Positions 7,101 through 47,605 of a stretch of DNA of 64,000 bases are shown here, in pieces. The position numbers and the translations under genes are program-made. Source of the stretch: Verrucomicrobiales bacterium (lineage in GTDB: Bacteria > Verrucomicrobiota > Verrucomicrobiae > Limisphaerales > UBA1100); NCBI GenBank assembly GCA_002721895.1, contig PBLV01000015.1, positions 1 through 64,000 of the forward strand, read 5' to 3'. The notes beneath the pieces are model-generated. The model worked only from the letters and a program-made list of their open reading frames with translations. It was not told the origin of the DNA and made no database searches. Position 1 is the stretch's first letter, and each line of letters starts with the position of its first letter.

Positions 7101-7216
7101 GGCGCAGCCAAAAGATAGATGACAAATTCTGTTCAAAACATGGGAAACAAATTTTGGATTGGGGATTGCCCATTGGGAGCCTCATTGGTGGGAATGATTG
7201 GCCTGGAGGGCCATTT

Positions 7217-7367
7217 GAGAATAGCCCAGCGTTTTAACGCTGGGATGGGGCGGTGGTTTCCCGTCTAGTCCCGGAGGGACGGGTGAAATTGCCCGGTTTC
7301 AGCCGTCCCGCTGGGACTGCTTGTTGAGCCGCCAACGACCCCAGCACTAAAGTGCTGGGCTATTCTC
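7217..7367. repeat. 151-bp composite palindromic element
   Basis: The element is bounded by a perfect 14-base inverted repeat, GAGAATAGCCCAGC (7217-7230) and GCTGGGCTATTCTC (7354-7367). Each end also folds alone: CCCAGCG-TTTTAA-CGCTGGG on the left and CCCAGCAC-TAAA-GTGCTGGG on the right. The middle holds further self-complementary GC blocks, TCCCGGAGGGACGGG and GTCCCGCTGGGAC. It contains no ORF. The shape is that of a REP/BIME-like or non-autonomous palindromic mobile element. It fills most of the 352-base gap between truA and trmL. Confidence 0.7.
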
Positions 7368-7891: not shown

Positions 7892-7936
7892 CGGGCGGGC
7901 GCGCGGGCGTATGCTGGCCGCGTTCCCTTACAGGAA

Positions 7937-8058
7937 ACTCATTAAGAGTGGCTGAGGAATCTGGTCCGATGAAGCCACGGCAACCGGTCGGGACGCGCCG
8001 TCCCGATGTCCAGGTGCCAAATCCAGCCGGTGGGCGAAAGCCAGCCGGGAAGATGAGT
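7937..8058 (+). promoter_or_regulatory. SAM-I (S-box) riboswitch aptamer
   Basis: The region shows S-box consensus blocks in the right order: AAGAGTGGCTGAGGAA, CTGGTCCGATGAAGCCACGGC, AACCGG, then CAGGTGCCAAATCCAG, and a 3' part with GCGAAAGC. Helix P1 is formed by ACTCAT (7937-7942) and ATGAGT (8053-8058). S-box aptamers bind S-adenosylmethionine and normally control methionine or sulfur genes. Here the next gene is a threonine-synthase-like enzyme followed by a sulfur-carrier protein. I did not run a covariance search; the call rests on reading the conserved core. Confidence 0.9.
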
Positions 8059-8078
8059 GGAGGCGCAAAGAATTTTGC

Positions 8079-36974: not shown

Positions 36975-37046
36975 ATCTTCCGGTTATTGGTTTTCGTTTT
37001 CGAATTTCTGTATCATTTTCAATTTGCCTGTGCTTTGCTCTATTGC

Positions 37047-38882
37047 ATGCACCGTTTCCTGTTGGCGTTCCTTTTCGTGGCGCAGGTGGCTTGGGGGCTG
37101 AATCCGCCGCCAAAGCCGAACATCGTGGTGATTCTTGCCGACGACATGGGCTACGGCGATGCGCGGTGTTACAATGCCAAGTCGAAGAATCCCACGCCGC
37201 ACATCGACCGGCTTGCGCGCGAGGGGATGCGCTTCACTGATGCCCATTCGCCGGCTTCGGTGTGTGTGCCCACGCGGTACGGGCTGCTCACCGGGCGCTA
37301 TCCGCATCGGGCGAATCTCGGTTGGCGGCGGCAGTCGGTCATTGAAAAAGGGCGCACGACGATCGCCTCGGCTTTGAAAGGGCAGGGCTACGCCACGGCC
37401 ATGGTCGGCAAATGGCATCTCGGTTTTGATGGCGGGCCAAATTACGATTACGCCAAGCCGCTCGTCGGCGGGCCGCTGGATCACGGGTTCGATTTTTATT
37501 TTGGCATGCCGCACTCGCTGGATATCGTGCCGTACTATTATATTGGCGGTCGAAAAGCGATTCAGGAGCCGACCGGGACGATCGGTCCGCGCAATACAGA
37601 GGGCTGGAGCAAAATTCAGGGTGAGTTTTGGCGCGGCGGGCCCATCTCGCCGGACTTCAAGCACGTGAAAGTGCTGCCGCGGTTCACGACGGAGTCGGTC
37701 GATTACATTCGCTCGCGACGCGACAAGGAACAGCCGTTCTTTCTGTACGTAGCCTTGCCCGCACCGCACACGCCGTGGTTGCCCACCAAAAAATTCCAAG
37801 GCCGCACGAACAACATGTATGGCGACTTCGTGGCGATGGTCGATGACACGGTCGGTCAAATCCTCAAGGCCCTCGACGACGCCCGCTTGGCGAAGAACAC
37901 GCTGGTGCTGTTCACCAGCGACAACGGCCCGGTGTGGTATGACGCCGACACCAAGCGATTCGGTCACAACGCCACCACGCCTTTGCGCGGCATGAAAGGT
38001 GACGCGTGGGAGGCGGGCCATCGCATGCCGTTTGTCGTGCGCTGGCCGGCGGCTGTGAAGGCCGGTGCGGTGAGTGATGCGCTGGTGTGCCAAGCGGATT
38101 TGCTGGCGACGTTTTCCGCGATCGCCGGTCGGCCATTGGCGGATGATGAAGGCGAGGACAGCGAAAACTTTTTGCCGGTGCTGAAAGGGCAGCGGGATTT
38201 CGCCCGGCGTTGGCTCATCACCGGCACTCGGCTCTCGCACTTGGCGGTGCGTCATCGGTTTTGGAAATTCATTCCGTCACTCGGCTCGGGAGGCTTCTCC
38301 AATCCGCGCAGTGCAAAGCCCAAGCCCGGTGGGCCAAAGGGGCAGCTTTACAATCTCGATGGTGACTTGGGCGAACGCGAAAATCTTTGGCTCAAGCAGT
38401 TGGGTGTGGTGAGTGAGTTTTCGGAGTACATCGGCGGGCAACAGGCCGCCGGTCGCACGCGTCCGCCGATGGAGCTGGTGCGGCGGTTGCTCAAAACATC
38501 GCCGCGCATCACGACGCATCGGCTGAATGCTGAAGAGAGCGAAAAGAAGTTTCTCTTTTTCACCGTCAGTCGCGACGGCCGGACGTTGCAGGGCAAAGCC
38601 AGCAATCGGCTACGCAATTTGGTTTTGGCCGATGCAGATTCCACCACGCGTCACGAGGAAAAGCTGCACTTTGATCCGGGCATCCTGCTGCGGTTCCGCG
38701 TGGGCGAGCGCGAGGCGCAGGTAGCGATTTGTTTCATCTGCAATTACTGGGCGCTGTACCTCGATGGCAAGACGGTGAGCTACACTTCGCTCAAGGAAGA
38801 ACGCGCCGATGTGCTGGCGGCGGTGAAGGCGATGTTTCCGAAAGACAAAATTATCCAGGGCATTCCGGAGAAACTGCAATGA
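37047..38882 (+). CDS. Secreted sulfatase 1 (arylsulfatase A-like)
   Basis: 611 residues from ATG 37047 with signal peptide HRFLLAFLFVAQVAWG. PNIVVILADDMGYGDAR (24-40) has the calcium-binding Asp pair. SVCVPTRYGLLTGR (71-84) holds the C-x-P-x-R formylglycine motif (C73), and GKWHLGFD is a further family block. The C-terminal 150 residues (after LGERENL) extend beyond a minimal sulfatase. Marine Verrucomicrobia use arrays of these enzymes on sulfated algal glycans. Its stop overlaps the next start (ATGA). No formylglycine-generating enzyme lies nearby. Confidence 0.94.
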   Translation: MHRFLLAFLFVAQVAWGLNPPPKPNIVVILADDMGYGDARCYNAKSKNPTPHIDRLAREGMRFTDAHSPASVCVPTRYGLLTGRYPHRANLGWRRQSVIEKGRTTIASALKGQGYATAMVGKWHLGFDGGPNYDYAKPLVGGPLDHGFDFYFGMPHSLDIVPYYYIGGRKAIQEPTGTIGPRNTEGWSKIQGEFWRGGPISPDFKHVKVLPRFTTESVDYIRSRRDKEQPFFLYVALPAPHTPWLPTKKFQGRTNNMYGDFVAMVDDTVGQILKALDDARLAKNTLVLFTSDNGPVWYDADTKRFGHNATTPLRGMKGDAWEAGHRMPFVVRWPAAVKAGAVSDALVCQADLLATFSAIAGRPLADDEGEDSENFLPVLKGQRDFARRWLITGTRLSHLAVRHRFWKFIPSLGSGGFSNPRSAKPKPGGPKGQLYNLDGDLGERENLWLKQLGVVSEFSEYIGGQQAAGRTRPPMELVRRLLKTSPRITTHRLNAEESEKKFLFFTVSRDGRTLQGKASNRLRNLVLADADSTTRHEEKLHFDPGILLRFRVGEREAQVAICFICNYWALYLDGKTVSYTSLKEERADVLAAVKAMFPKDKIIQGIPEKLQ

Positions 38883-40162
38883 AACGAATCCTCTTTTCAC
38901 TGTTGGCGTGCGCGGCGATGGCCGTTGTGGCGCAAGGCAAACCGAATATCGTGCTCATCATGACCGACGATGTCGGCTGCGAACCCATCGGTGCTTATGG
39001 CGGTGAACGCTGGAAGACGCCGCACATCGACGCGCTGGCCAAGAGCGGCATGCGGTTTGATTACGCCTTCAGCATGCCCGTGTGCCATCCCACGCGTGTG
39101 TGTTTAATGACCGGCAAATATCCGTTCCGGCTCAAGTCAAAATGGGGCAGCTTTCCAAAGGCCGAGGAGAAAAACTCCATCGCGCAGGTACTCAAGCGCG
39201 CCGGTTACGCTACGGCGGTGGCGGGCAAGTGGCAGCTGAGCCTGATGAAGAATGATCTGCAACAGCCCGCGCGGATGGGTTTCGATGAGTGGAGCGTGTT
39301 CGGCTGGCACGAGGGCGCGCGTTTTCACGAACCGTTCATTTATGAAAACGGCCGACTGCGGACGGACACGAGGGGCAAGTACGGGCCGGATTTGTACGTC
39401 GAATTCCTCGGTAATTTTATGGCCAAAAGCGCCAAGGCGGGGAAACCGTTTTTCGCCTACTACCCGATGGCGCTGGCGCATGACGTGACGGATGATATCC
39501 CGGTTCAGGTGCCGTACATGCCGGGCAAGGATCGCTGGATGAACTACGGCGAAATGATCGAAAGCATGGACGCGATGATTGGCAAACTCGTTGCCAAAAT
39601 CGACCAGCTCGGCCTGCGCAAAAACACCGTCGTCTTTTTCACCGGCGACAACGGCACGGCCAAGCGTTCCAAGCTGCGCCACATCGAAGGTCGCAAGTAC
39701 GAATACGAAAACGTCTTCTCCATCCGCAACGGCCAACGCATTCCCGGCGGCAAAGGCACGCTGCTGGACATCGGCACCAACGTCCCGCTCATTGCCAGTT
39801 GGCCCGGCCGCATTCCCGCTGGGCGCCAAGGCCATGAGTTGGTGGACTTCAGCGATTGGCTGCCCACGGTTGCTGAACTGGCCGGCACGCGGGTGAAGCA
39901 CCCCATCGATGGCGTCAGTTTTGCCTCCACGCTCCTCCGCACCCGCCGCCATGTTGCCCGCTACCACGCCTTCGCCGAAGGCCGCGGCAAGGCTTGGGTG
40001 CGCACCAAGCAATACAAGCTCTATAGCGACGGCAGGTTTTTCGACGTGAAGAATGATGCGATGGAAAAGTCGCCGTTGAAAAATCCCGGTGAACATGTCG
40101 CGGTGATTCGTCAGAACTTGGAAAAGGCATTCCATGATTTAAATTACCCCATCAAGAAATGA
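38879..40162 (+). CDS. Secreted sulfatase 2
   Basis: 427 residues from ATG 38879, overlapping the previous stop by 4 bases; the open frame further upstream is a shadow. Signal peptide KRILFSLLACAAMAVVAQG, PNIVLIMTDDVGCEPIGAYGG with the metal Asps, and CHPTR (69-73) as the formylglycine site. GKWQLS replaces the usual GKWHLG, so one active-site His is changed to Gln, which is worth noting for activity. GDNGTAK is the second metal-binding block. Substrate unknown. Confidence 0.93.
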   Translation: MKRILFSLLACAAMAVVAQGKPNIVLIMTDDVGCEPIGAYGGERWKTPHIDALAKSGMRFDYAFSMPVCHPTRVCLMTGKYPFRLKSKWGSFPKAEEKNSIAQVLKRAGYATAVAGKWQLSLMKNDLQQPARMGFDEWSVFGWHEGARFHEPFIYENGRLRTDTRGKYGPDLYVEFLGNFMAKSAKAGKPFFAYYPMALAHDVTDDIPVQVPYMPGKDRWMNYGEMIESMDAMIGKLVAKIDQLGLRKNTVVFFTGDNGTAKRSKLRHIEGRKYEYENVFSIRNGQRIPGGKGTLLDIGTNVPLIASWPGRIPAGRQGHELVDFSDWLPTVAELAGTRVKHPIDGVSFASTLLRTRRHVARYHAFAEGRGKAWVRTKQYKLYSDGRFFDVKNDAMEKSPLKNPGEHVAVIRQNLEKAFHDLNYPIKK

Positions 40163-41559
40163 TGAAACGCATCATACCTTCTTTGCTTGTTCTTTCACTG
40201 GCGGTTTTTCTGAGTGCAGAGGATCGTCCCAACATTGTCCTCGCCATGGCTGATGACCAAGGGTGGGGGGACATGGGATATATGGGGCACAAGGTGTTGA
40301 AGACACCGGTGTTTGATGAAATGGCGCGAAGGGGGCTGCGCTTTGATCGATTTTATGCGGCAGCACCGGTGTGTTCGCCCACCCGGGCGAGTGTGTTGAC
40401 GGGGCGGCATCCGAATCGTATGGGGTGCTTTCAGTGGGGGCATACGATGCGCAAAAATGAGATTACCATCGCCGAGGCCCTCAAGGCCGCGGGCTATTCC
40501 ACCGGCCATTTTGGCAAGTGGCATCTCGGATCGGTGCGGGCGGACAGTGAGGTGGCTCCGGGCAAGAACGGCTTTGATGAATGGGTTTCCGCGCCGAATT
40601 TTTACGAGAACGATCCGCTCTTCAGTCACAACGGCAAGGTGATTGAAACTCAGGGCGAAAGTTCGCATGTCACCGTTGAGCTGGCGCTCGACTGGATGGC
40701 GAAGGTGAAGGATAGACCGTTTCTCGCGGTGGTATGGTTCGGCAACCCGCATGGACCGCATGTGGGTACAGAAAAATTTCTCAAGATGTACAAGGATGAA
40801 ACCAAGGCGATGGCAAATTTTTACGCGGAGATTACCGCGATGGATGCCGCGATGGGTGAATTGCGGGGCGGCCTTCGTCGGTTGGGGGTGGCGGACAATA
40901 CCATTCTTTGGTATTGCAGTGACAATGGCGGCTTGAAGCCCAACTCCATGGGAGGGTTGTCTGGTAGGAAGGGCAATTTGCTTGAAGGTGGCATTCGTGT
41001 GCCCGGGCTGATTGAGTGGCCTGCGGTGATCCGGAAAAACCGGGTGACGAATGTTCCGGCCAACACGGTGGATATTTACCCCACAATCTTGGAATTGGCA
41101 GGAGTAAAATTGACGCGGGGTCAGCCGATACTGGATGGGGTCAGCTTAGCGGATTTGGTTCGCGGAAAGGATTTTAGGAGGGTGAAGCCGATGGGGTTCT
41201 GGCATTACAGGACGGGGGGGAGAGGCATGCGCGCGCGGCAGATTTTGGAGGCCTTAAGGGAAGAGCAACGGACGGGCAAACAAAAGCCAGCGCCGGAAGC
41301 CGGCCAGGTAGACAAGAAATATCCGCTGGATACTTTTCCTGGTGCCGCGGCATGGATTTCTGGTGACTGGAAGCTGCACCGGATTCCGAACAAGCAGGGA
41401 CTCTCGGTGAGCTACAAGCTGTTTAACCTGCGTGTGGACAAGGTGGAGCAGAGGGATTTAGCGGAAGCTCAGCCGGAACGCTTGACACGATTGAAGACGG
41501 AACTGGCGGCTTGGCAGAAGAGCGTGGTGAACAGTCTCAACGGGGGGGACTACCGCTAG
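40159..41559 (+). CDS. Secreted sulfatase 3
   Basis: 466 residues. The start overlaps the preceding stop (ATGATGA), so either of two adjacent ATGs (40159, 40162) may be used. Signal peptide KRIIPSLLVLSLAVFLSA, NIVLAMADDQGWGDMGYMG, formylglycine site CSPTR (72-76), and GHFGKWHLGS with the conserved His. CSDNGGLKP is the second metal site. The three sulfatases are translationally coupled and have different C-termini, suggesting different linkages on one substrate. Ends immediately before the convergent selB stop, with no gap. Confidence 0.94.
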   Translation: MMKRIIPSLLVLSLAVFLSAEDRPNIVLAMADDQGWGDMGYMGHKVLKTPVFDEMARRGLRFDRFYAAAPVCSPTRASVLTGRHPNRMGCFQWGHTMRKNEITIAEALKAAGYSTGHFGKWHLGSVRADSEVAPGKNGFDEWVSAPNFYENDPLFSHNGKVIETQGESSHVTVELALDWMAKVKDRPFLAVVWFGNPHGPHVGTEKFLKMYKDETKAMANFYAEITAMDAAMGELRGGLRRLGVADNTILWYCSDNGGLKPNSMGGLSGRKGNLLEGGIRVPGLIEWPAVIRKNRVTNVPANTVDIYPTILELAGVKLTRGQPILDGVSLADLVRGKDFRRVKPMGFWHYRTGGRGMRARQILEALREEQRTGKQKPAPEAGQVDKKYPLDTFPGAAAWISGDWKLHRIPNKQGLSVSYKLFNLRVDKVEQRDLAEAQPERLTRLKTELAAWQKSVVNSLNGGDYR

Positions 41560-43443
41560 TCAGCCCTGCTGACGCAGGACGCGAAGGTCGCCTTGCCGAA
41601 GGGTGATGCCGTCCTTGTCCATTTTTTCCAAAAGCGGGATGAGCACGCGACGGCTTGTTCCAATCACTTCGCGAAGTTTGCTGGCTTTGGCGCCGCCAGA
41701 GGCAAGTTCGGTGCGCACTGATTTTACTGCTTCATCAAACGCATGGGTGTCCATGGCTAGATCCGGTGAGAGCTCAACGGCTTCACCGTTGTCGAGCAGG
41801 AAGCGGAGGGCGTCTGGGTGGCCCAAATCCTTGCGGGCTGGCGGTTCCATGGGCTTGGCGCGGAGTGCAGCACGGACATTCTCGGCGGCGGCCTGCATGG
41901 CTGGAGGCAGGGTGAGGGTATGGGAGTCGCGGGACAGGAGGGTGCCATTGCGGCTAAAACCGTTGGTGCACAGGTCGTCCAAGAGGATGTCGATGGAATC
42001 TGTAGGGAGGTATTCGCGGAGGGCCTTGCGCAGGGTGGCCAATGGCAGTCCGGGGCGTTCGGGGTGTTGTGTATGCTCGGTGTTGATGAGAGTAGCCGCA
42101 GCGTTGAGGGCATTTTTCCAGCACTCAGGGTCGGCAACCCAATCCTTGATTTGCACCGTATCGATTACACCCAATGCGGCATCGATCTGGGATTCACCGA
42201 AGCGGGATTGCTTCAACAGGTTCCTGCGGAGTACGGCGCCAAGTCGTTGAAGGTGTGCCTTGGCCCACTTGGCGGAGTCATCGGGGTTGACGGCTTGGGC
42301 GCATTGTTGAAGCAGTGTTCGTTGGGGCGGGGAGCGAAAGCCTCTTCGGGGGGCTGTGGGATCGATGATGATGCCGCCGGCGAGAGTAGAGGTCTCGGGC
42401 CAGTCTCGAATGACAACGCGGTCTCCCGCGAGAAGATGCACGGGCGACTCAAAGCGCAGTTGGGCAAATTCAGATTCGCCGGGCTTGATTTCCTTTTGAT
42501 CCATCAGCACAAGTCGCGCAGGCGTGTTGGCGCTGCCATGATGAACCCGGATGCGGGTGTGATTGCGGAGGATACGTTGGGGGCTGTTGGGGGAGCGCTG
42601 GATATGAATATCGGCAGTTTCGGATGGTTCGCCGAGGTGTGGAAGGGTGAGGGTTTCTCCGCGTAAAACATCCTGGCGCGATGCGTCGCTGAGACAGACG
42701 GCTGTGCGGGTGCCGGGAGGGGCGATCTTCACCTCTTGATTGTGGGATTGCAGCGAACGTACGCGTGCCTTGCGGTTGCCGGGTTGGAGGGTGATGGTTT
42801 GGCCGTGGCTCAGGGAGCCGCCGGACAGTGTGCCGGTAACGACCGTGCCGATGCCTTTTAGGGTGAAGACACGATCGGCCAGCAGCCGCGGTTTGCCGTC
42901 ATTCATCGGTGGAGGAATTTGTGCCAGTGAGGTGGCAAGCGCGATTTTCAAGGTCTCAAGACCTTCGCCCGTGTGTGCGGATACGGGGATGATGGGTGCC
43001 TGCTCCAAGGGCGAACCGGCGAGCCGTTCGCGCACATCTTCCGTGGCAAGTTCCACATCGGCATCAGGAAGGTCTGCCTTGGTGAGGGCGACAATGCCGT
43101 GGGTGACGCCAAGGTAGTCGAGGATTTGAAAGTGTTCCTCCGTTTGGGGCATCCAACCATCGTCAGCGGCAACGACAAGCAGGCCGCAATCGATAGAGCC
43201 AACACCGGCGACCATGTTCTTTACAAAATCCTCGTGGCCGGGAACGTCGATGATGCCGACACTGATAGGTCTCCCATCAGTTGAACATAGATCAAGATGA
43301 GCGAAGCCAAGTTCGATGGTAATGCCCCGTTTCTTTTCCTCGGGTAAACGATCCGGGTCACTGCCGGATAACGCCCGGACAAGGGCGCTTTTGCCGTGGT
43401 CGATATGACCGGCGGTTGCGAGGATGTAATGGAGTGGTTCCAT
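41560..43443 (-). CDS. selB: Selenocysteine-specific elongation factor SelB
   Basis: 627 residues from ATG 43443 (MEPLHYILATAGHIDHGKS). GTPase motifs: GHIDHGKS (12-19), DVPGHE (66-71) and LTKADL. RGITIELGFA is the SelB-type switch I. Domains II-III follow, and the C-terminal third consists of winged helices (RRNLLKQSRFGESQIDAALG; KLREVIGTSRRVLIPLLEKMD) that bind the SECIS RNA. It delivers Sec-tRNA to UGA codons marked by a SECIS hairpin. Last gene of the sel island, 16 bases after the transglutaminase-like gene. Confidence 0.97.
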   Translation of the reverse strand: MEPLHYILATAGHIDHGKSALVRALSGSDPDRLPEEKKRGITIELGFAHLDLCSTDGRPISVGIIDVPGHEDFVKNMVAGVGSIDCGLLVVAADDGWMPQTEEHFQILDYLGVTHGIVALTKADLPDADVELATEDVRERLAGSPLEQAPIIPVSAHTGEGLETLKIALATSLAQIPPPMNDGKPRLLADRVFTLKGIGTVVTGTLSGGSLSHGQTITLQPGNRKARVRSLQSHNQEVKIAPPGTRTAVCLSDASRQDVLRGETLTLPHLGEPSETADIHIQRSPNSPQRILRNHTRIRVHHGSANTPARLVLMDQKEIKPGESEFAQLRFESPVHLLAGDRVVIRDWPETSTLAGGIIIDPTAPRRGFRSPPQRTLLQQCAQAVNPDDSAKWAKAHLQRLGAVLRRNLLKQSRFGESQIDAALGVIDTVQIKDWVADPECWKNALNAAATLINTEHTQHPERPGLPLATLRKALREYLPTDSIDILLDDLCTNGFSRNGTLLSRDSHTLTLPPAMQAAAENVRAALRAKPMEPPARKDLGHPDALRFLLDNGEAVELSPDLAMDTHAFDEAVKSVRTELASGGAKASKLREVIGTSRRVLIPLLEKMDKDGITLRQGDLRVLRQQG

Positions 43444-43459
43444 CGGTCGAGAGAAGCCG

Positions 43460-44398
43460 TTATTGGGGGGGCAGGCGTTTGAATTCAAACGTGGCTTTCA
43501 CCGGGATTTCCCTGCCATTGACTTCAAGGTGGGGGCCAAAGAAATAATTGAAGGGGCCTGATTTCGGGGCGGGCTTGACGGCGATGTCGCGGCCGCGGCT
43601 GAGTTCAAGCCGGTTGGCCGGGTGATGTCCGAAATAGTAATTGGCCAGTTCTGGATGTTTGTCTGCTTCGCTGATGTCCACTGGTATCCATTTGCCGTTG
43701 GCGTGAAATTCCGCCCAGCAATGATAACCGCCGATGGCGCCGGCATCCTTGTCGGCCGGGATGGTGAAGCCGATGGCAAAGCGTGCAGGGATGTTGATGG
43801 CGCGACATAGGGCGATAAAGTAGGCATGAAAATCCGTGCAATTTCCGGTTCTCGCATCACAGGCGTATAGTGCGTCGCCCCGGCCCCAGCCTTTGCCAGT
43901 TTTGCTGTAACGCATGTGGTCAAGCACATGGCGATAAAGGGCACGAGCCCGGTCGTGGTCATCCTTCGCCTTGGCAGTGGTGGATTTGGCAATGGTGGTG
44001 AACCGCGCGTTCAATGGCACCAGTCTCTCGGCGCGCAGATGCACCTTTGGATCACCAGTCTCATGGTGGGCGCGTTTTTCCCTGCGGGTAACTTGGTATC
44101 GGATGGTAACGCGTTGGCCATGGTCTGTGGGTTTCGGCTTCATCACGAGAATGTCATTCTGGCCCGATTTATCGCGGACTCTATGCCATGCAAGGGAGGA
44201 TTGAATGGTGAGCACATCAAATTTCTGATGAGCATCCGGTCGTGCCAAGGGAATCCAGAGTGTGCCCGGTTCGGCCAGTTTCGGGACGGTCAGTTGGTAG
44301 ACGAGCTCGAACCGATCCGTGTTACGCACGATGGTTTTCTCGGTGGCAAATCCGCTGGCCGCGGTCAGTGCAATGAGTGTTGTCAGGATTGTTTTCAT
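43460..44398 (-). CDS. Exported transglutaminase-like protein within the sel operon
   Basis: 312 residues with a signal peptide (KTILTTLIALTAASGFA). The transglutaminase-like core has the full triad: C187 in GNCTDFHAYF, H226 in GYHCWAEFHA and D241 in IPVDISEA. Such secreted proteins act as peptidases, amidases or cross-linkers. It overlaps the selA stop by 4 bases (ATGA) and is followed by selB 16 bases on, so it is embedded in the operon. A role in selenium metabolism is not known, and it contains no UGA codon. It may be a passenger gene or a clade-specific partner. Confidence 0.9.
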   Translation of the reverse strand: MKTILTTLIALTAASGFATEKTIVRNTDRFELVYQLTVPKLAEPGTLWIPLARPDAHQKFDVLTIQSSLAWHRVRDKSGQNDILVMKPKPTDHGQRVTIRYQVTRREKRAHHETGDPKVHLRAERLVPLNARFTTIAKSTTAKAKDDHDRARALYRHVLDHMRYSKTGKGWGRGDALYACDARTGNCTDFHAYFIALCRAINIPARFAIGFTIPADKDAGAIGGYHCWAEFHANGKWIPVDISEADKHPELANYYFGHHPANRLELSRGRDIAVKPAPKSGPFNYFFGPHLEVNGREIPVKATFEFKRLPPQ

Positions 44399-45732
44399 GT
44401 AAAAATTGATTGGATGGACTGAAGGAGTGCCTTGTCTTGTCCGGGTGGCACGGTGCGCAGATCCAACCGGAAGCGGTGGTTTTGAATGATACCGATCACT
44501 GGCATGGGGGCGCGGCGCAGATGAGCAGCGAAATCCTTGAGGGTGATGCCATCAGGGATAAGGTCGACCGTCATGCTCGGCAGTTTGACTTGTGGTAAAG
44601 CGCCTCCTCCTACTTGGGATTCGCCTTCACCAACAATTATTGTCAAGGGCAGTTCGCCGAGTGCTTTGGCGAGTTTGTTGGCCCGGCGCTTGATGGACTG
44701 GGGAGTGGCGTGCAGCACTTGGTTGAGCGGAAGCGATTCGCCTTCGTTGTGAAGGTACGTTTCCGCGGCAGTTTGCAAGGCTGATAGGATGAGCTTGTCA
44801 CATCTCAAGGCGCGGAAGAAGGGATGCTTTTTCAACGCATTGATGTGTTTTGCCTTGCCGGCAATGATGCCGGCTTGTGGGCCGCCAAGCATCTTGTCGC
44901 TGCTGAAGCAAACGAGGTCTGCGCCGGTCTTAAGTGCTTCTCGGGGTGTGGTTTCATGATGGCCGTTGGCCCAGTTCTCGGTGGGCAGCAGCGCGCCACT
45001 GCCAAGATCTTCGACAAAGGGGACGCGTTTTTTGCACGCAAGCGTAGCCAGTTCACGGCGACTGGGAGCGCCCACGAAGCCATTCATGAAAAAATTGCTG
45101 TGGTGCACCTTGAGGAGCAGTCCGGTGTTGGCGTTGATGGACTTGGCATAATCGTTGAGGTCAGTGCGATTAGTGGTGCCGACTTCACGAAGGATGGCGT
45201 CGCTGGTTTCCAGAATATCGGGAATGCGAAAGCCGCCGCCAATTTGCACGAGTTCGCTTCGTGAAATGACAACTTCCTTTCGGGTCGCGGTGAGTTGGCG
45301 CAGGATTAGCACAAGGGCGGCGGCGCAGTTGTTGGTGACCATTGCCGCTTCCGACGCACAAAGCTCGGCAAGGCATTGCTCGACGTAAGGTGCACGCTTG
45401 CCGCGTCGGCCGGTGGCGAGGTCGATTTCCAGATTTGTGTAGCCGGCGTTGTCCGGTACTGACACTGGAGCGCGTCCGAGATTTGTGTGGATGATCACAC
45501 CGGTTGCATTGATAACTGGTTGTAGTCGGGACAGGGCAAGGTCGTTCAAACGCTGGCGAACGGTTTTGATGATGTCATCTGTGGCCGGGATATTTTTTGC
45601 CTTGCGGAGTGTGGTTAGTTCCTTGCGAATGGTGGCAACCACGAGCGGGCGTGGCAGGAGGCAGTCGGGCATCGCCTCGAGAAGCGTATCAACGCCGGGG
45701 ATGGCACGCAGGTTTTTGTTGGCCTTGGGCAT
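44395..45732 (-). CDS. selA: L-seryl-tRNA(Sec) selenium transferase SelA
   Basis: 445 residues. Fold-type I PLP enzyme that converts seryl-tRNA(Sec) to selenocysteinyl-tRNA using selenophosphate. Landmarks: QPVINATGVIIHTNLGRAP (71-89), SRSELVQIGGGFRIPDI (158-174), REVGTTNRT, and the Schiff-base lysine K280 in SSDKMLGGPQAGI. Its start overlaps the selD stop by one base and its stop overlaps the next gene by four bases. Confidence 0.98.
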   Translation of the reverse strand: MPKANKNLRAIPGVDTLLEAMPDCLLPRPLVVATIRKELTTLRKAKNIPATDDIIKTVRQRLNDLALSRLQPVINATGVIIHTNLGRAPVSVPDNAGYTNLEIDLATGRRGKRAPYVEQCLAELCASEAAMVTNNCAAALVLILRQLTATRKEVVISRSELVQIGGGFRIPDILETSDAILREVGTTNRTDLNDYAKSINANTGLLLKVHHSNFFMNGFVGAPSRRELATLACKKRVPFVEDLGSGALLPTENWANGHHETTPREALKTGADLVCFSSDKMLGGPQAGIIAGKAKHINALKKHPFFRALRCDKLILSALQTAAETYLHNEGESLPLNQVLHATPQSIKRRANKLAKALGELPLTIIVGEGESQVGGGALPQVKLPSMTVDLIPDGITLKDFAAHLRRAPMPVIGIIQNHRFRLDLRTVPPGQDKALLQSIQSIFT

Positions 45733-46760
45733 CAGTTGACGGTGATGAGTGGCTGGGTGTAATCGGTGAGCTTTCCGAAGGAGGTTAGGTTCAGTTCCGA
45801 TGTGGCCTTGTTAAAGGTTTCAAGCCCGTCGGGCATGACGGCCACCAGCAGGCCGCCACTCGTTTGGGGGTCGCAGAGCAGGGCGCGTTGGGCGTCTGTG
45901 AGTGGGCTGATGAGGTGACCATAGCTGTCGAAATTACGGTCGGTTCCGCCGGGGGTGCAGTCTTCGGCAATGTACTGATCGGTGTTTGGCAGTCTTGGCA
46001 CGGAGGCGCTGTTGATCACGGCGCTTACGCCGCTGCCTTCGCACATTTCGGTGAGGTGACCGAGTAGGCCAAAGCCAGTGACGTCGGTCATGGCATTCAC
46101 TTCAGGCAAGGCGCTGAGTTGGCTGCCGATTTGGTTGAGAGCGGTCATTTGCTCAACAGCCCGTTTCAGGTCAGCGGTTTCAGCAATGCCTCGCTTTTGT
46201 GCGGTGGTTACCAGGCCGACGCCAAGGGGTTTGGTGAGAAAGAGTTCACAACCAGGCTTGGCGGTGTCGTTGCGCTTGAGATTTTCCACTTGCACTTGCC
46301 CTGTAACGGCGAGGCCGAAAATGGGTTCGGGAGTATCAATGCTGTGTCCTCCCGCAAGTGGGATGCGAGCTCGATTGCATGCCGCGCGGCTTCCTTCAAG
46401 TACGCGGCTGGCGACTGTGGGAGGGAGTTTTTCAATCGGCCAACCCAGCACGGCGATGGCCATCAGCGGGGTGCCACCCATGGCGTAGATGTCACTAATG
46501 GCGTTGACGGAGGCGATTTGGCCGAAGTCGAACGGATCGTCCACGATGGGCATGAAAAAATCCGTGGTGCTTATGATGGCTTGGCCGTTCCCCAAGTCAT
46601 ACACGGCGGCGTCGTCTTTGGAGTCATTGCCGACGAGCAGTTGGGCATGTGGTTCTGGCTTGCCGGCTTGGCTGAGGATTTCCTCGAGTACGGCGGGCGA
46701 AATTTTGCAACCGCAACCTGCGCCATGGCTATATTGAGTTAGGCGAATGGGATCAGTCAT
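45732..46760 (-). CDS. selD: Selenide, water dikinase SelD
   Basis: 342 residues. Makes selenophosphate from selenide and ATP. The N-terminal [11 protein letters not shown] has the catalytic Cys (C16) and Lys (K19); in some bacteria this Cys is Sec, but here it is encoded by a Cys codon. The ATP-binding [19 protein letters not shown] and [17 protein letters not shown] blocks are intact. It lies 102 bases downstream of tRNA-Sec and begins the protein-coding part selD-selA-transglutaminase-selB. Confidence 0.98.
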
Positions 46761-46862: not shown

Positions 46863-46958
46863 TGGCGGAGAGGGTAGGAATCGAACCTACCTCGGCCCGG
46901 TTACGAACCGACAACGGTTTTGAAGACCGCGGGGGCCACCAGGCACCCTCAACTCTCC
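46863..46958 (-). tRNA. selC: tRNA-Sec (anticodon UCA)
   Basis: 96 bases on the minus strand with encoded CCA. The acceptor GGAGAG pairs with CTCTCC, the T arm is GGTAGG-TTCGATT-CCTACC, and the anticodon loop CTTCAAAA carries UCA, which decodes UGA. The long variable arm (about GTTGTCGGTTCGTAACCGGGCCGAG) and extended acceptor/T stack are typical of bacterial tRNA-Sec. It lies 35 bases after the selenoprotein stop and 102 bases before selD. Confidence 0.96.
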
Positions 46959-46993: not shown

Positions 46994-47230
46994 TTACCGC
47001 AGGGCTTGAACAGCCCGCAGGACATCATCGGGGGCGGGAAATTCTCCCGTTGCCCGTTTTGAATGGAGCATTTTTCCATCCGCAGTAACTTCAAAAACGC
47101 CGCCGTCGGATGGGACCAACTTCAAGGCGCCGATGCGCTGCTTCAGCTTCATGAGCCGTTCCGCCAGACCGACGGCATGGGGCTCATAGTTTCAAGCTGC
47201 GCAATATTCGATGACAATTTCCTTTGGCAT
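46994..47230 (-). CDS. SelW/Rdx-family selenoprotein with in-frame UGA (Sec13)
   Basis: 78 residues if UGA at 47194-47192 is read as selenocysteine: MPKEIVIEYCAAU, then NYEPHAVGLAERLMKLK, and ending DDVLRAVQALR before a TAA stop. This gives the CxxU redox motif (C10, U13) in the first beta-alpha turn, and GVFEVTADGKMLHSK in the middle, the hallmark of SelW/Rdx thioredoxin-like proteins. Homology continues on both sides of the UGA, which argues against a stop. Directly after the UGA is a bacterial SECIS-like hairpin. It sits at the head of the sel island. A normal gene call would miss it or truncate it to 12 residues. The start is the only ATG in frame; Shine-Dalgarno weak. Confidence 0.93.
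47151..47187 (-). promoter_or_regulatory. Bacterial SECIS hairpin
   Basis: Starting 4 bases after the UGA, ATGAGCC (47187-47181) pairs perfectly with GGCTCAT (47157-47151). Above it CC pairs with GG, and GCC (47176-47174) with GGC (47165-47163) closes an 8-base loop GTCGGTCT. The GGTCT in the loop equals the SelB-contact loop of the E. coli fdhF SECIS as I recall it. The hairpin is inside the coding region, as bacterial SECIS elements are. Confidence 0.88.
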
Positions 47231-47605
47231 ATCGTGGTGCTGGGAGAAAATAGGCAAAATTGCAAAAGGTTGGCGAGTTAGTTTTGTGTGTTTTGGATGG
47301 AATGAAGATTAGAGTAAAATAGGGTAGGCTTAATCGCAATTAACCATTTGCAAACCAAGTCGACATTCCTTGCAGTGCCTTCGGGGGTTGTCATGATGTT
47401 GGCTAAGGGCTGGCGTTGTCTTAATTTTTAGATAAGAGGGTTTTTGCTGTTGATGTTAATGTTCAACACAAGGTGGTGGTCGGTCGGGTGGCATCGCCAA
47501 TACCGGAAAAGGAGAGTCCATCTTCAAGCTAGTCAAGTTGGCTGCACCTTATGAAAAGCAAAAAGCCGCCCGGAATAGGCGGCTGGCTTTACATATAGTG
47601 TGGCT
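47231..47605. other. 375-bp intergenic region upstream of the selenoprotein
   Basis: AT-rich gap with no coding signal I can support. On the minus strand TTGCGA, 17 bases, TACTCT lies about 70-100 bases before the selenoprotein start and could be a weak sigma-70 promoter for the sel island. The far end (47555-47584) holds the terminator of the next minus-strand gene. Confidence 0.4.
47555..47584 (-). terminator. Intrinsic terminator of the small lipoprotein gene
   Basis: On the minus strand AGCCGCC-TATTCCG-GGCGGCT followed by a T run. The stem occupies 47584-47564. The stem sequence is the same as that of the terminator at 47846-47870. Confidence 0.92.

Follow-up and report, generated by a model that had tools for sequence, protein, structure and literature searches.

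The window, that is, the whole stretch of 64,000 nucleotides that was analysed, carries on its minus strand a small selW gene followed by a cluster of genes for the synthesis and insertion of selenocysteine (Sec). The features are as follows, in the order in which the minus strand is read:

47564..47584, minus strand: terminator-like hairpin upstream of selW, consensus match only
46994..47230, minus strand: selW/rdx gene of 78 codons, ATG ... TGA (codon 13) ... TAA
47192..47194, minus strand: in-frame TGA, predicted selenocysteine codon and final residue of the CAAU motif, TGA in 81/81 sequences
46863..46958, minus strand: tRNA-Sec with anticodon TCA (ARAGORN; Rfam 46958-46867), starting 35 nt past the selW stop
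45732..46760, minus strand: selD, selenophosphate synthetase, Cys form with the motif GCGCK
44395..45732, minus strand: selA, selenocysteine synthase
43460..44398, minus strand: transglutaminase-like gene (PF01841), whose place between selA and selB is conserved in near relatives
41560..43488, minus strand: selB, Sec elongation factor with a C-terminal winged-helix domain, first listed start TTG

All of selA, selB, selC and selD are thus present beside selW, and the gene order on one strand is selW, tRNA-Sec, selD, selA, the transglutaminase-like gene and selB. This agrees with the preliminary description, which had placed the Sec machinery next to the reading frame: tRNA-Sec, SelD, SelA and SelB all lie downstream of it on the minus strand. 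In other SelD proteins, the Cys position of the GCGCK motif can be occupied by Sec. Because the terminator-like hairpin (47584-47564) lies upstream, selW may be the start of a separate transcription unit; the scanned region has 11 such sites, where shuffled sequences gave 7.9. No obvious conserved leader was seen before selW across 13 aligned upstream stretches.

Read from 47230 to 46994, the selW frame starts with ATG, has 12 codons in all before the TGA at codon 13, and continues for 65 codons up to a TAA; its product is MPKEIVIEYCAAUNYEPHAVGL...RAVQALR. The coordinates and the 78-residue frame of the preliminary description hold, and the strand, which it had left unstated, is minus: the plus-strand frame at 46994..47230 is meaningless as a protein. 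With U read as C for scoring, Pfam Rdx (PF10262), the check that had been suggested, covers residues 5-75, before as well as after the TGA (E 1.4e-17, 64.1 bits, cut-off 22.6), and the family sequence runs on past the UGA to the TAA as had been claimed. The TIGR02174 profile (CXXU_selWTH) is also passed with 52.3 bits against a cut-off of 34.2; the narrower NF041051 profile gives 73.6 bits, below its cut-off of 88. In phmmer alignments, CAAU of selW is aligned to CTQC of solved bacterial SelW-related proteins, so that the CxxU stands where it had been said to stand, at the CxxC/CxxU place of the SelW/Rdx family.

An AlphaFold2 model built from 38 sequences (pLDDT 90.4) consists of a strand (residues 3-10), the CxxU loop, a helix (16-29), three further strands and a C-terminal helix. 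By alignment and by this predicted model, the CxxU sits in the loop following strand 1 of a thioredoxin-like fold, and C10, U13, F46, E47, S57 and K58 are invariant across 38 aligned proteins. When the model was compared with the PDB, SelW-related proteins came at the top (best 2fa8_B, TM 0.92 by query length); mouse SelW took rank 22, ahead of the thioredoxins. The Cys-type Rdx structures 2fa8, 2obk, 2oka and 3dex share the fold and the place of the CxxC with selW, but have Cys where selW has the predicted Sec. With bacterial SelW-like proteins (Rdx, PF10262; TIGR02174) the gene has in common the family match, the CxxU, the size, the predicted fold and a UGA with a bacterial SECIS (bSECIS). 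Almost certainly, selW is a SelW-like (Rdx) gene whose UGA at codon 13 is a predicted Sec codon, with a CAAU active site in a predicted thioredoxin-like fold. From motif and predicted fold, its product is likely a small thiol/selenol oxidoreductase.

One scan of the species-genome collection returned 152 relatives, from which the best 80 were kept. TGA is found at the site in these best 80 and in the window (81/81), never TAA, TAG or a Cys codon, and each of the 20 genomes of loci L001-L020 has an Rdx with one TGA. Three of these 20 relatives also carry a second, more distant SelW copy with one TGA (G006:C173:1904-2119, G007:C30:6723-6941 and G008:C34:25805-26017). In the order to which the genome of L001 belongs, 43 of 196 genomes have a SelW protein; among the 45 matches, 43 contain one TGA and two contain none, the latter having CAPC and CAVC with the codon TGC. 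Of the genomes with a Cys SelW, G037 is without tRNA-Sec among the matches listed (read by hand), and G056 has tRNA-Sec and also a UGA SelW copy. Downstream of the TGA, dN/dS is 0.076/0.862 against L001 and 0.125/1.207 against L002, i.e., about 0.09-0.10 for the two nearest relatives, the 10 upstream codons being too few for a firm ratio. The preliminary description had named two outcomes that would count against its reading: the lack of an Rdx match on either side of the TGA, and a genuine stop in close relatives with nothing conserved behind it. Rdx instead matches before and after the TGA, and the TGA is kept throughout, with strong downstream conservation. The frame thus has the marks of a selenoprotein gene, namely an in-frame UGA, conserved sequence before and after it, and homologs with Cys at the same site, and, judged by sequence comparison, the invariant TGA and the low dN/dS place it far from chance.

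If the TGA were a real stop, the locus would be a Cys-type rdx gene that is dead or has lost its frame, or would contain a sequencing error, and the tail would be translated from a downstream ATG. Database entries look like this: 18 of 20 SelW homologs begin after the U position, and 17 of those are 51-57 aa long. A tail without strand 1 and the CxxU, however, would be left with no active site and an incomplete version of the predicted fold. Together with the TGA kept in every relative, the purifying selection behind it, a covarying hairpin (below) and Cys forms that have TGC and no hairpin, this makes a real stop highly improbable. The short entries are better read as annotation loss. Other traces of the same loss are found: one database homolog, P0003, has W at the U position, presumably a TGA translated as Trp; in Thermomicrobium, the annotated Rdx CDS begins after the TGA; and in a Cytobacillus plasmid, selW, placed between selD and selA, is given no CDS (PLSDB gene table, incomplete). 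Another homolog, P0006, carries R there, which may be either a true substitution or a reading of TGA. SelW genes entirely missed by annotation have been described in epsilonproteobacteria (PMC4607533). The statement that standard ORF calling cannot report the gene was therefore nearly right, the usual result being a frame that starts past the U. A systematic loss is corrected here: the group does possess an intact gene that is under selection, of which most database entries represent only the tail.

Behind the UGA lies a hairpin of the bSECIS type:

47150..47188, minus strand: bSECIS-type hairpin, folding at -17.7 kcal/mol, with upper-stem covariation and an apex as in E. coli fdhF
47188-47181 paired with 47157-47150, minus strand: lower stem
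47175-47171 paired with 47165-47161, minus strand: upper stem
47170-47166, minus strand: apical loop GGUCU

Numbered from the T of the TGA, positions 20-24 pair with 30-34 and 25 with 28, and the 81 sequences align without gaps in this region. The hairpin stands at a fixed distance after the TGA: the inner pairs 21-33 to 24-30 are standard in 80/81 sequences and all six pairs in 56/81, and, in the apical loop, G26 is invariant (81/81) and U27 is found in 79/81. When the same geometry was placed at 37 other in-frame offsets, it was formed by 0/81 sequences at 29 of them and by at most 10 at any. Among the 74 distinct sequences, 94.4% of the cells are paired, and 35 cells show a double change, against 5.7 in shuffled alignments and 10 or fewer in slid controls. 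A weaker measure counts the pairs in which both sides have changed; its value of 4 was attained in 15 of 500 shuffles and in the +2 slide. Of the 74 distinct sequences, 16 lack pair 20-34 and 8 lack pair 25-28.

Since the gene is translated through this region, the conservation might come from the protein. Indeed, the stretch encodes a conserved helix start (AVSLA), and pair 25-28 fails in the eight AGTCT sequences. Coding constraint on its own would hardly make both sides of the pairs change together, and the slid controls score far lower. Gly GGT is paired with CTG in 11/11 cases, though Leu TTG would be equally good for the protein. A natural control points in the same direction: all six pairs are kept in 7/7 distinct further UGA forms, L083 and L093 being one locus and counted once, against 0/7 Cys forms, which keep 2-4 pairs. 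Five of these seven Cys forms are Cys-type Rdx genes of rhizobia, related to one another and without the selW-type hairpin. That the conservation reflects coding alone is thus very unlikely, and an RNA element is preferred.

The hairpin agrees with a published bacterial SECIS model which, as given in PMC13188914, has a loop of 3-9 nt, an upper stem of 4-16 bp, a distance of 16-37 nt after the UGA, a G in the first two loop positions and an energy of -7.5 kcal/mol or lower. In selW, the loop is 5 nt, the stem 5 bp, the loop start GG, the distance 21 nt and the energy -17.7 kcal/mol; this energy belongs to the 39-nt hairpin, and the 18-nt tip alone reaches -6.8, short of the -7.5 limit. As a single sequence, the hairpin is moderately stable (z -2.0, 6/200 shuffles equally good), and the 95-nt context around it favours a different fold (z -1.0). 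None of the Rfam SECIS models matched it, the sole hit up to E 5 being a snoRNA at E 3.8. A known counterpart is the SECIS of E. coli K-12 fdhF, where a small stem behind the UGA likewise carries GGUCU at its tip. There, however, GGUCU is three bases nearer to the UGA, the remaining stem sequence differs, and the last U of GGUCU pairs with A in the fold, leaving the loop GGUC, unlike the GGUCU loop of selW.

A UGA can also be read as another residue, for example as Trp or through suppression. The W of P0003 and the R of P0006 could be taken as hints of this. In the window, on the other hand, the complete sel machinery adjoins selW, the bSECIS-type hairpin is present, and the sel genes are open frames under translation table 11; elsewhere, Cys stands at the site in 7/7 non-UGA forms whose DNA was read. 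Decoding as something other than Sec is accordingly extremely doubtful. Sec incorporation at this UGA would follow known bacterial biology: SelB carrying Sec-tRNA-Sec would bind the apical GGUCU and deliver Sec at the UGA. In the loop that joins strand 1 to helix 1, Cys10 and Sec13 may then form a reversible selenenylsulfide, which would pass electrons to or from a partner. No such redox partner emerged among the selW neighbours, no family occurring in more than 5 of the 92 proteins scanned with Pfam (138 neighbour ORFs were listed; the sel genes, the ORFs of L025 and L031 and some others were omitted). Pfam HSP20 was found in 3 of these 92 proteins. A search of viral contigs gave 188 pattern matches and no SelW relative.

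SelW-like CxxU proteins are long described and among the commonest bacterial selenoprotein families in print, and their omission from annotation is in print as well. The family was the most abundant selenoprotein family in the Sargasso Sea (PMC1088965) and in the GOS data, with 427 members (PMC2398784), and a more recent marine survey puts its share of the selenoprotein genes at 11.3% (PMC9402790). What sets the window's lineage apart from bacterial SelW-like genes generally is that selW heads the sel cluster directly before tRNA-Sec. Going by gene order, this position of SelW as leader of the Sec cluster in Verrucomicrobia-type genomes (23/26 loci) is the less expected part. Among open-access titles and abstract openings, no description of SelW heading a Sec operon in Verrucomicrobia was found.

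In 23 of the best 80 loci, tRNA-Sec lies 38-209 nt downstream of selW on the same strand, and all 23 fall among 26 loci (L001-L023, L025, L026 and L031) with Verrucomicrobia-type titles, except L018, titled "bacterium". The remaining three are L007 and L015 (in G007 and G015), whose contigs end within 131 nt of selW, and L026, which is unlinked; selW is also unlinked to tRNA-Sec in L030, an "uncultured bacterium" that shares the CYQU motif of L026. Eleven loci (L001, L002, L004, L005, L006, L008, L010, L011, L013, L014 and L016) show the complete order, transglutaminase-like gene included, as do L093 and the window. In L020, the transglutaminase-like gene lies upstream of selW.

Other groups have other arrangements. 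In 12 loci with selD and selA, 11 with Bacillales-type titles and one titled Chryseobacterium (L067), selD lies upstream of selW and is read from the other strand, and selA follows downstream on the selW strand; in L080, selD is 4 kb distant. Among loci with Planctomycetes-type titles, 6/26 have any sel gene (L029, L034, L041, L046, L050 and L052), as counted by tblastn with the window's proteins over up to 8 kb per locus. Where a record title gives no higher group, the genus is one that we take to belong to the Bacillales or the Planctomycetes. A Cytobacillus spongiae plasmid (L099) has the order selD, UGA selW without listed CDS, an Hsp20 gene and selA, and small ORFs between selW and selA are also present in L063, L066, L068 and L070.

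Across the 196 order genomes, SelW and tRNA-Sec tend to occur together. Among the matches listed, both are found in 35 genomes, SelW alone in 8, tRNA-Sec alone in 30 and neither in 123; that is, tRNA-Sec is present in 35/43 SelW genomes against 30/153 others, with a p value of about 1e-13 that is rough because tRNA-Sec rows were read by hand, borderline rows were omitted and G178 was retained. Counting by Rfam alone fails because the model fires in 196/196 genomes, mostly as cross-matches of tRNA-Ser size. By hand, at least 65 tRNA-Sec genomes were read, with rows of 90-96 nt and all but one above 56 bits; about eight borderline rows (90-94 nt, 51-55 bits) were not counted, whereas G178 (53.5 bits) was, since it adjoins selW. 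Among the matches listed, 7 of 42 UGA SelW genomes are without tRNA-Sec by the same reading.

The transglutaminase-like gene is present in 21/196 order genomes (E <= 1e-30). Among the matches listed (hand-read), 18 of these 21 carriers have tRNA-Sec or a UGA SelW (hypergeometric 1.6e-6), and G028, G090 and G204 have neither. It is a possible candidate for an unrecognised selenium-linked gene, or possibly a passenger.

Linkage of a selenoprotein gene to the decoding genes has a precedent in fdhA, which is linked to selA-selB-selC in Pseudomonadales and others (PMC1794560). Those genomes have no selenoprotein besides FdhA; in the present case SelW is the linked gene, and a UGA FdhA occurs in near relatives as well. 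Here selW would be the first gene of one transcription unit that also comprises tRNA-Sec, selD, selA, the transglutaminase-like gene and selB. A further reading is that the selW frame serves also as the selenium sensor of the Sec operon, client gene and feedback switch in one: decoding or stalling at the UGA, or SelB held on the hairpin, would set the output of tRNA-Sec, SelD, SelA and SelB from the same transcript. This sensor role is rather unlikely. The arrangement of a UGA and hairpin ahead of their own decoding genes (selW-tRNA-Sec-selD-selA-selB) nevertheless makes a selenium feedback loop directly testable.

SelW as the sole client of the Sec machinery was considered and rejected: FdhA with one TGA scores over the family cut-off in 16/196 order genomes. 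Because a UGA FdhA occurs in order genomes including the near relatives G002 and G044, SelW is one of at least two predicted selenoproteins in the group. In the UGA FdhA of G044 and G002 (L094 and L095), NCSRA-U-HSP is followed by a hairpin with a GGUCU apex as in selW, seen in 2/4 loci examined; L096 is a fragment reaching the contig end, and L097 failed the text filter. Two unrelated proteins, SelW and FdhA, thus have one common loop, GGUCU. Within the window, 65 in-frame TGA frames have a loose hairpin; 8 have a Cys three residues from the U, SelW being one, and none of the seven others was convincing by eye as a further selenoprotein.

Two more features of the window may be mentioned. Three consecutive sulfatase-like frames at 36987-41559 on the plus strand are convergent with the sel genes, and Pfam sulfatase was found for the two checked. 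An Acido-Lenti-1 RNA at 7199-7244 on the minus strand (Rfam 37.9, gathering score 37) has a SAM riboswitch (7936-8059) some 700 nt away.
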